This document shows positions 1,937-13,762 of a DNA stretch of 41,333 bases, piece by piece. The translations under genes and the position numbers were made by a program. The notes beneath the pieces were generated by a model. That model was not told where the DNA came from and ran no database searches. It saw nothing but the letters and a program-made list of their open reading frames with translations. Location of the stretch: positions 1 through 41,333 of the forward strand of contig NEXD01000008.1 of the NCBI GenBank assembly GCA_003019595.1, given 5' to 3'. Numbering within the stretch: position 1 is the stretch's first letter; each line of letters starts with the position of its first letter. This DNA is from Candidatus Marsarchaeota G1 archaeon BE_D. Its GTDB lineage: Archaea > Thermoproteota > Thermoprotei_A > Marsarchaeales > Marsarchaeaceae.

Positions 1937-3071
1937 ATTCGACGTTGCGGTGATAGGAGGCGGAGCGGTTGGACTTTCCACAGCTTATTGGCTTGCAAAA
2001 AAAGGACTAAAAGTTGCGCTTTTTGAAAAAAACTATCTAGGAAGTGGTTCGAGCACAAGAAATGCCTCAGGGTTTCGGGTTCACTTCAAATCGGAGCAGA
2101 ATGTGAAGTTTATGATCGAAGGCAAAAAAAGGTTGCTCAGGCTAAGCAAAGAATTAAAGTACAATCCACTTGTGTCTGAGTGTGGTTATTTATGGCTTCT
2201 TGCAACAGAAGAGCAAATCAACGAGTTCAAGAAAACAAACAACCAAGTTTGGTCAAAACACAGTGTTTCAGGGAAGTTTCTTGATACTCATGAGTTAAAG
2301 CAAATTCTTCCAAATGCAAAAACTGAAGGTGTGACGCTTGCGTTTTTTGGGCCTCAAGACGGCACTTTTCATCACGATTTTGTGCTTTTTGCTCTGCAAA
2401 GCGCGCTCAAAAGGTCTAGGGTGTCTGTTTTCGAGTGCTCGGAAGTCACAGAAATTTGTGTAAAATCGAACAAAGTTTCTGGATTAAGCATAGGCGCGCG
2501 TGAACATACGTGCGAAAAGCTTGTGGTGTGTGCTGGTGCATGGAGCGCAAGCGTGTGTAAACTTGCTGGTGTTAGCGTGCCAATAGAGCCTGAAAGAAGA
2601 GAATTGGGCGTCACAGAGCCAATCAGGCGTTTTGTTGACACGTTTGTCATCGACCTTTCTAGATCCATTTATCTTACGCAAGGAATTAGGGGGGATATTA
2701 GAGGTGGACCAACCGACTTGGCGACACGTGGTTTTGCACCTCTTTTGTCAACGTTTAAATGGACTGTGGAGTTTTCAAAAAGAATTTGTGCGCTTTTTCC
2801 AGACCTAAAAGGTGTGGGCTTGAATAGGCAGTGGAGCGGTTATTACGAAGTGACACCTGATCACTCCCAAATCATGGGCAGAGGTGAAAACTGGCCTGAA
2901 AACTTCTATGTCGCTGCGGGTTTTAGCGGTCATGGAATGATGATGTCACTCTTAGCTGGTGAATTGATGGCCGAACACGTGGCCGACGGCTTTACACCAG
3001 AGCTTATGAAACCTTACTCGCCAGATAGGTTTGCCAAAGGTAATACGCTTGATGAGTCGATGATTTTTTAG
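1929..3071 (+). CDS. FAD-dependent oxidoreductase, DAO family (sarcosine oxidase beta/HcnC-like)
   Basis: Putative catalytic subunit that oxidises a small amino or imino acid with FAD. The N-terminus has the Rossmann FAD motif VAVIGGGAVGLSTAYWLA, followed by FEKNYLGSGSSTRNASG, the DAO-family region where FAD or substrate is contacted. The C-terminus has YYEVTPDHSQIMG and the FSGHGMMMS block, both typical of this family. I prefer TTG 1929 (MSEFDVAVIG) because it places the Rossmann strand close to the N-terminus and overlaps the upstream stop; TTG 1914 would add five residues. The TAG stop ends at 3071, directly against the 3' end of the convergent tRNA-Arg. Together with the upstream gene it forms a two-subunit dehydrogenase. 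A GcvT-like sarcosine oxidase domain and a delta subunit are missing, which argues against a true heterotetrameric sarcosine oxidase. Confidence 0.82.
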   Translation: MSEFDVAVIGGGAVGLSTAYWLAKKGLKVALFEKNYLGSGSSTRNASGFRVHFKSEQNVKFMIEGKKRLLRLSKELKYNPLVSECGYLWLLATEEQINEFKKTNNQVWSKHSVSGKFLDTHELKQILPNAKTEGVTLAFFGPQDGTFHHDFVLFALQSALKRSRVSVFECSEVTEICVKSNKVSGLSIGAREHTCEKLVVCAGAWSASVCKLAGVSVPIEPERRELGVTEPIRRFVDTFVIDLSRSIYLTQGIRGDIRGGPTDLATRGFAPLLSTFKWTVEFSKRICALFPDLKGVGLNRQWSGYYEVTPDHSQIMGRGENWPENFYVAAGFSGHGMMMSLLAGELMAEHVADGFTPELMKPYSPDRFAKGNTLDESMIF

Positions 3072-11298: not shown

Positions 11299-12535
11299 GA
11301 AAGACGAGTCTTCAACGTTGCAATTGTTAAAGAAAAAACAAGAAGAGTTAAAAAAGATCATTGAACAAATTCCTTCATCATCGATTCTTCCAAGACCAGT
11401 TGTAGAAAAGATTATCGAAGTTTGCGCTTCAAAGGGCTTGACCCATAAGCAGTTTGAAAAAGTGGTAAAGAAAGCGGTAGAAAAGTACGAAGCCGCAATG
11501 GTTGAACCAGGGGAGCCTGTTGGTGTTGTTGCGGCGCAGTCTATTGGTGAACCTGGTACTCAAATGACTTTGCGAACTTTCCACTACGCGGGTGTAAGGG
11601 AGTACAACGTAACGCTTGGTCTTCCAAGGCTTATAGAAATAGTCGACGCAAGAAAAACGCCTTCAACGCCCATGATGACCATTTATCTTGAGGAAGGGTA
11701 CAGAAACTCGCGCGAAAAGGCGTATGAAGTGGCTAAAAAGATACTTCAAGTTACTATCGATGATATAGCAGACAATATAAGCATAGGGGATGGTTACATT
11801 TCGTTCACGCTAAACGCCGAGCAAATGGAAAAGCACGAAATAAAGCTCGACGAGGTTATAGAAGCGGTAAAGGGCGCTCTTGGGAAGGCGAGGTCAGAAA
11901 AGGCTGAGATTGTAAAGGAAGGAAACAACGCTTTTACAGTGATGAACGAGGAGATGAATAGCGCCTTGTTGTACAAGCTCAGAGGTAAGCTCGCATCCGT
12001 AGTGCTAAGGGGTATTAAGGGCATCACAAAAGTGTACTTAGAAAAAACGCGTAACACACAAGGTGAAGAAGAGTGGTACATAATTACTCAAGGTAGCGAC
12101 CTTGCAAAGGTGATAAAGTTTGAAGGTGTGGACAAGACAAGAACCGTGACAAACAACATTTACGAAATATACGAAGTTTTGGGAATAGAAGCCGCAAGGA
12201 ACGCGATAATTCGCGAAGTGATCTCGACACTCAAAGAACAAGGTCTTGAAGTCGACTATAGACACATAGCGCTTCTTGCAGACTGGATGACCGAGTCTGG
12301 TCAGATTAAGCCGGTGAGCAGAGCTGGTATAACGCTTGGCAAGTCGAGCGTGCTTGCGAAAGCCGCATTCGAGGTCACAGTGAATCACCTAATTGGCGCC
12401 GCAGAATCTGCAGAGCTTGACACGCTTGAGGGCGTAACAGAAAGCGTTATAGTTGGGAACTACATACCTATGGGAACGGGAATGGTGGAATTACTCGTAA
12501 AACTGAGGTCTTTGGGAAATGTCGGAAACAATTAA
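11291..12535 (+). CDS. rpoA2: DNA-directed RNA polymerase subunit A'' (A2)
   Basis: C-terminal third of the largest polymerase subunit, 414 aa. The trigger-loop region [28 protein letters not shown] is conserved; only part of it is needed to recognise the family. Near the C-terminus [20 protein letters not shown] and [15 protein letters not shown] match the jaw/cleft region of archaeal A''. The GTG start at 11291 overlaps the end of rpoA'. The first ~45 residues are Lys/Glu-rich. The gene overlaps the L30e gene downstream by 17 nt, indicating translational coupling. Confidence 0.97.
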
Positions 12536-12815
12536 TTCTCTTAAAGTCGCAGTAAAAAGCGGTAAAGTGGTGTTTGGACTAAAGCAGACGCTTCAAGGGA
12601 TCGAAAGAGGCTCCGTGAAACTTGTGGTGATTTCTGCAAACGCTCCAAAGGAACACGAGCAAAAAGTAGAGCAAGCCTTAAAGAAAGGCGGGGTAAAAAT
12701 TTACCGATTTCCTGGAAGTGGCTGGGATCTTGCATCAGTGTGTTCGCGTAGCCACATCATTTCGGTTATGGGAGTGATAGACCCAGGTGAATCTGACTTG
12801 TTCGAAAGGGTTTAG
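12519..12815 (+). CDS. rpl30e: Ribosomal protein L30e
   Basis: A 98-aa protein of the L7Ae/L30e/S12e RNA-binding family. [23 protein letters not shown] followed by [15 protein letters not shown] is the L30e pattern; the position between the A'' subunit and NusA genes is the usual archaeal site. It is part of the large ribosomal subunit. The ATG lies inside the end of rpoA''. The TAG stop is followed by GGGGTGAT, the ribosome binding site of nusA. Confidence 0.93.
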
Positions 12816-12830
12816 GGGTGATTCAAGATA
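12815..12830 (+). promoter_or_regulatory. Ribosome binding site that points to an ATA start for nusA
   Basis: GGGGTGAT is followed by TCAAG and then ATA at 12828-12830. The same GGTGAT-N5-start arrangement precedes TTG in rpoB and rpoA', and GGTGAG-N5-TTG precedes rps10. No ATG, GTG or TTG exists in frame between the preceding TGA (12819-12821) and ATG 12858, which lies ~30 nt past this site. Confidence 0.6.
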
Positions 12831-13274
12831 GGCGAAATAAAGCTTAGCCTTGAACAGATGAGATATATCGGCCTATTTGAATCACTCACTGGTGCGTCGG
12901 TAAAGGACTGCGTTCAACACGGTGAATCTTTGCTTTTTGTGGTCAATCCCGGAAACGCTGGTAAAGCCATAGGCAAACGAGGAAGTAACATAGAAAGAGT
13001 ATCAAAAGTCTTACAAAAAAAGGTTGAAGTGGTGGAATGGGCGGACACGCTTGAAGATTTTGTAAAGTCGATTTTCGCCCCTGCGCGCATTCTTTCGGTC
13101 AACTTGATTACCAACACCGATGGTTCAAAAAGGTTGATCGTCGTGCCACACGAAGAAGACCAGGGCCTTGCGATCGGTAAAAACGGAAGAAACATTCAAA
13201 AGGCGCGACTTCTTCTTAAGCGCTATTATGATATAGAGCACGTTGAAATAAAAAGTGCCAAAACTTTAACTTAG
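12828..13274 (+). CDS. nusA: Archaeal NusA-like transcription factor, two KH domains
   Basis: An RNA-binding protein of the archaeal NusA family, linked to transcription elongation or termination. Two KH domains are visible with loops AIGKRGSNIERV and AIGKNGRNIQKA. Conserved N-terminal residues IKLSLEQMRYIGLFE lie in frame before the first ATG (12858), so translation very probably begins upstream. The best candidate is ATA 12828, five nt after GGTGAT. Starting there gives 148 aa; starting at 12858 gives 138 aa and removes the first conserved strand. The gene sits between L30e and S12, its usual archaeal position. Confidence 0.9.
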   Translation: MGEIKLSLEQMRYIGLFESLTGASVKDCVQHGESLLFVVNPGNAGKAIGKRGSNIERVSKVLQKKVEVVEWADTLEDFVKSIFAPARILSVNLITNTDGSKRLIVVPHEEDQGLAIGKNGRNIQKARLLLKRYYDIEHVEIKSAKTLT

Positions 13275-13318: not shown

Positions 13319-13762
13319 TTGGCGGATTCAAAAAGCCCACGGGGCGCGTTTGCCGCAAGAAAGCTTTACAGAAAAAGACAGAAGTTTCGTTGGTCAGACA
13401 GAAAGTATCTTATAAGAAAGCTACAGCTAAAAAAGAAAGTCGATCCTTTGATGGGCGCCCCCCAAGCGCGTGGAATTGTTCTTGAAAAGGTTGGCGTGGA
13501 ATCACGTCAGCCCAATTCCGCGGTAAGAAAGTGTGTGCGCGTTCAGCTCATCAAAAACGGTAAACAGGTCACGGCGTTTCTTCCAGGAGACGGTTCTCTC
13601 AACTATGTTGATGAGCACGATGAAGTTATAATCGAAGGAATAGGCGGAACCCTTGGAAGGTCGATGGGCGACCTTCCTGGCGTAAGATATAAAGTTGTTA
13701 AAGTGAACGGCGTTCCGTTGAATTTGTTGATAACAGGCAAAAGGCAAAAGCCTGTTAGGTGA
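13319..13762 (+). CDS. rps12: Ribosomal protein S12 (uS12)
   Basis: 147 aa, decoding-centre protein of the small subunit. Conserved blocks are [20 protein letters not shown], which includes the PNSA loop at the decoding site, VTAFLPGDG and [15 protein letters not shown]. The TTG start at 13319 follows GGTGAG by four nt. The stop TGA is embedded in the GGTGAT ribosome binding site of rps7, so the two genes are translationally coupled. Confidence 0.97.

Follow-up and report, generated by a model that had tools for sequence, protein, structure and literature searches.

The nusA gene of the window, i.e., the whole 41,333-nt stretch of DNA analyzed here (genome G000, from a poorly studied hot-spring archaeon), very probably starts at the ATA codon at position 12828, placed by a Shine–Dalgarno (SD) sequence and initiated with Met-tRNA. 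This reading, which is based on sequence comparison, is supported because no canonical codon (ATG, GTG or TTG) is available, the SD spacing is the one preferred in the family, and the start position is aligned in six genomes.

Start Site of nusA in the RNA Polymerase Operon

The operon in the window has the order rpoB, rpoA′, rpoA″, rpl30e, nusA, rps12, rps7, tuf, rps10, in which nusA is located between rpl30e and rps12 (Table 1). Downstream of the TAG of rpl30e, the sequence reads GGGTGATTCAAG and then ATA GGC GAA ATA AAG CTT AGC CTT GAA CAG ATG. A sequence-only reading of this region had proposed ATA as the probable start, stating that no ATG, GTG or TTG lies between an in-frame TGA and the conserved N-terminus, that GGTGAT is positioned exactly 5 nt upstream of the ATA, and that the same spacing precedes the TTG starts of neighboring genes; all three statements were confirmed. 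The nusA frame is closed upstream by TGA 12819–12821, from which it continues as TTC AAG and ATA, and it contains no ATG, GTG or TTG from this TGA to ATG 12858. A 5-nt spacer, TCAAG (12823–12827), separates GGTGAT from the ATA, and GGTGAT-N5-TTG is likewise found at rpoB (5213) and rpoA′ (8629), with GGTGAG-N5-TTG at rps10 (15749). Conserved coding begins at this ATA, with no canonical codon available there. The in-frame TGA at −9 to −7 arises because a GGTGA-N5-start spacing always creates one, and it therefore provides no independent evidence for the ATA start.

The 3′-end of archaeal 16S rRNA is AUCACC, to which GGTGAT is complementary. The nusA site carries GGTGAT-N5 at the spacing usual for this genome, as judged against the general archaeal 16S 3′-end, and the average upstream profile of 238 anchored ATG genes of the family prefers G-G-T-G-A-T at −11 to −6, i.e., N5. 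The RNA fold around the nusA start was unremarkable (z −1.07) and gave no sign of a regulatory structure.

Table 1. Features of the nusA start region in the window and near-cognate starts in related genomes (loci named by L numbers).
Feature	Position	Strand	Remarks
rpl30e (50S ribosomal protein L30e)	12519..12815	+	Gene upstream of nusA; ATG start; TAG stop 12813-12815
Shine–Dalgarno sequence GGGGTGAT	12815..12822	+	Core GGTGAT 12817-12822; first base is the last of the rpl30e TAG
Proposed nusA start codon, ATA	12828..12830	+	N5 from SD; aligned codons in the family ATT, TTG, TTG, ACG, ACG
nusA (archaeal NusA with two KH domains)	12828..13274	+	148 codons and stop; TIGR01952, KH_5, KH_2
First in-frame ATG of nusA (alternative start)	12858..12860	+	ATC in G001, thus not kept as Met
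rps12 (downstream control gene)	13319..13762	+	TTG start
rpoA′ (RNA polymerase subunit A′) with ACG start	L114 5160-7832; L186	minus (L114)	Relatives ATG
rpl30e of G001, ATC start	L085 3126-3419	minus	Orthologue matches NF002172 L30e

Identity and N-Terminus of the Protein

The predicted product matched the TIGR01952 profile over residues 3–141 of 148 with 142.2 bits (cut-off 74.35), and KH_5, KH_2 and KH_KhpA-B domain matches were also obtained; archaeal NusA proteins bind RNA and carry two KH domains, and their function is unclear (PMC8116511). A protein initiated at ATG 12858 would lack the ten N-terminal residues IGEIKLSLEQ. The sequence-only reading regarded residues in this stretch as conserved, and this view was borne out by alignment to the archaeal NusA chain of PDB 2CXC, in which residue 2 of the query is aligned to residue 3 of the chain, and by the pattern of codon change: compared with G002/G004, codons 2–10 comprise five identical, three synonymous (one of them Ser AGC/TCG) and one non-synonymous codon, and no synonymous pairs occur when the same codons are compared in shifted frames. 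Codons 2–10 are thus under protein-level constraint, which indicates that the stretch 5′ of the first ATG is translated.

Start Codons of nusA in Related Genomes

The family consists of six genomes in four genera, G000 (this window) to G005, which were placed by genome comparison, and the group is given as Marsarchaeota G2. The codon at the aligned nusA start is ATA in G000, ATT in G001, TTG in G002 and G004, and ACG in G003 and G005; three of the four genera therefore show different non-canonical codons, and within the family ATA occurs only in a single genome, which is metagenome-derived. The conservation of ATA or ATT that the sequence-only reading had proposed to look for was found in G001 and did not extend to the TTG and ACG genomes; the codons of the relatives, together with the upstream constraint, nonetheless strongly support its proposal of an ATA start. 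The open frame of G001 has the ATT as its fourth codon, reads ATC where ATG 12858 is aligned (ATG in G002–G005), and reaches its first canonical codon at codon 41, inside the KH core. The SD sequences are weaker at the ACG orthologues (GGTG-N8) and at the TTG orthologues, and the gap between rpl30e and nusA measures 20 nt in G001, compared with 12 nt in the window.

Across the class, 93 distinct nusA loci were compared, and five had no canonical codon before the core, namely four family members and one locus with CTG in another family; the nusA genes of G038 and G032/G053 (ATA and CTG candidates) were excluded from the counts because a canonical codon also lies nearby. A canonical start is thus absent from nusA in 4/6 family genomes vs. 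1/~87 other loci of the class (p=2.5e-5). In G035, a member of another family, nusA shows CTG after AGAGGTGA with no canonical codon (L160 / L226), and its genus-mate G080 (L209) retains CTG at the same place with an additional GTG two codons upstream. Outside the family, the near-cognate rate is that of nusA, rpl30e and rps12 only. In a 60-genome set, the aligned start of the rps12 control was canonical wherever this gene was found, and two genomes, G001 (ATC) and G041, had an rpl30e without a canonical start. The latter, which belongs to another family, reads GGTGAA-N5-ATA and offers no canonical codon in the vicinity of the aligned position (L019).

Probable Near-Cognate Starts and Other Irregularities in the Family

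Near-cognate starts in this family are not confined to nusA, which is the most recurrent case. The rpoA′ gene begins with ACG in both G003 and G005, immediately after the rpoB stop, and G002/G004 have ATG at the same SD spacing. In G001, the ATC of rpl30e is preceded by GAGGTG at N5-type spacing and followed by TCG GAA ACA ATT, codons that match those of the ATG-started rpl30e in the window. The start of SRP54 in G003 is ATT, that of galT in G004 is ACG, and CTG is found at rrp4 and carS in G000 and at a RadB-like gene in G001.

A systematic comparison of reciprocal best ORFs was performed on ~2.4 Mb of family genomes sampled in stretches. No canonical codon was present near the conserved start in 103/1402 ORFs, many of which are frameshifts, rRNA-region or boundary artefacts. 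Among start-less ORFs with an SD (at least 5 nt at N4–N6 near the conserved start), a near-cognate codon was found in 16/41, an approximate count in which a few rows are sister genomes, vs. 13.3% expected (p=3.6e-5). This test was adopted because the TGA inherent in GGTGA-N5 distorts the in-frame background of a less strict, genome-wide count of SD-anchored codons (offsets −3 to 2), in which a clear excess was seen for ATG, TTG and GTG only. Codons aligned with SD-supported canonical starts showed no near-cognate excess (12 vs. 67, p=0.52), because most mismatches are shifted starts; the family-wide claim is therefore kept within moderate bounds. Start-codon selection in Marsarchaeota G2 may be generally relaxed, a tentative proposal under which ~1% of genes, including core ones such as rpoA′, SRP54 and rpl30e, would start at SD-chosen AUA, AUU, AUC, ACG or CUG, with nusA as a favored weak-start site.

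Two other family genes show breaks of a different type. Between REAAGM and TQHIGAS, the aIF5B gene is broken by a segment of 20–21 nt that holds a stop and an AUCCU..AGGAU hairpin (in G000, L057, minus strand, near ORF offset 10869; in G001, L097, minus strand, near 3069). A stop or frame break is present at this site in all six family genomes and in four genomes of a sister family, and is absent from five other genomes of the class; the insertion resembles a very small mRNA intron shared across the order, or a site of translational bypass. In G000, SRP54 shifts frame around NLLGGEKHNLTGPRK (L051, minus strand, near ORF offset 5961), which could represent an indel, an assembly error or another small insertion.

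Alternative Explanations

Initiation at ATG 12858, with the conserved residues upstream being untranslated or only ancestral, would use the first canonical codon of the frame, one that is shared by G002–G005. Such a start is improbable, since it would discard ten conserved residues, including the IKL(S/T) strand also present in 2CXC, and leave the synonymous constraint 5′ of the ATG unaccounted for; G001, which lacks a fallback Met codon ahead of the KH core, is decisive against it. A sequencing or consensus error that produced ATA from TTG, GTG or ATG might be suspected in a single metagenome-derived contig, all the more as TTG occupies the site in G002/G004, and the sequence-only reading had held that ATG or TTG in relatives would point to such an error. 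This is very improbable because the two ACG genomes, which are independent assemblies, agree with each other; moreover, TTG is restricted to one genus, the two other genera are also non-canonical, and the conversion of TTG to ATA requires two changes. It is barely conceivable that rpl30e and nusA, which share one frame in this genome, are joined as an L30e–NusA fusion by readthrough of TAG and TGA, that nusA has a spliced 5′ exon, as the presence of at least one small intron-like insertion in the order, in aIF5B, might suggest, or that RNA editing converts the start codon to AUG. Readthrough would have to pass two stops, and the genes are in different frames in G001; they are only 12 nt apart; and C-to-U editing could repair ACG, but not ATA, ATT or ATC.

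A further explanation, which is compatible with the ATA start and whose link to initiation-factor levels had been suggested by the sequence-only reading, regards the weak codon as a regulatory device through which NusA would follow the level of an initiation factor or of initiator tRNA, as IF3 does on AUU. The recurrence of weak codons at nusA in the family is consistent with this idea, as is the finding that aIF1 favors discrimination against non-canonical starts in Sulfolobus (PMC6237735). However, NusA is not an initiation factor, so that a feedback loop is not apparent; comparable codons are also found in rpoA′, SRP54, rpl30e and galT, and aIF1 is ordinary in sequence with an ATG start. 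A regulatory role is thus unlikely.

Possible Mechanism and Comparison With Known Systems

For the preferred ATA start, the sequence and spacing of the SD are observed, and the 30S subunit would be placed by pairing of GGGGUGAU with the 16S 3′-end. Initiator Met-tRNA would then pair imperfectly, and with reduced efficiency, with AUA, one mismatch from AUG, in the P site, and the protein would begin with Met. The likely effect is a low synthesis of NusA relative to its operon neighbors. Ribosomes finishing rpl30e may assist, as the SD overlaps the rpl30e stop, and termination coupling from rpl30e to nusA is possible. Since aIF1 is present with a normal sequence, the strong SD is likely a compensation for discrimination by aIF1 against ATA. 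Three different codons in three genera speak for a tolerance of, or a preference for, a weak nusA start; the weak codon could be selected for low NusA output or could reflect drift. Loss of aIF1 was considered as a cause of the odd starts and rejected, as the gene was found in 4/6 family genomes with an ordinary sequence, the other two assemblies being incomplete. A scan covering half of the genome revealed no unusual initiator tRNA and only tRNA-Met with a CAT anticodon.

In bacteria, IF3 itself proofreads the start codon, which provides feedback on infC. The AUU starts of infC (IF3) and pcnB lower translation in Escherichia coli (PMC9410913 and references therein) and resemble the nusA start in that a near-cognate AUN codon with an SD is found on a single conserved gene. 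The nusA gene differs from infC in that it encodes a KH protein of the NusA family and not an initiation factor such as aIF1, its start codon varies between genera, and no infC-type feedback is apparent. Archaeal start codons have been described as AUG, GUG and UUG (PMC7531240); the nusA site shares its SD and spacing with the TTG genes of the same operon, as in archaeal SD-led initiation, but its ATA falls outside this set. The adjacent co-directed genes and the SD over the upstream stop are also reminiscent of termination–reinitiation pairs (PMC6728339), but stop and start do not overlap as ATGA or TGATG and are 12 nt apart. No prior report of such near-cognate starts in archaea was found in a non-exhaustive literature search.

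Significance

Because common gene callers accept only ATG, GTG and TTG, annotations of this group would truncate or miss nusA, rpoA′, SRP54 and similar genes. Confirmation of these starts would place archaea alongside bacteria as users of AUN, ACG and CUG initiation in housekeeping genes, and the repeated occurrence of a weak start at nusA would then offer a way to test whether initiation sets the dosage of NusA.
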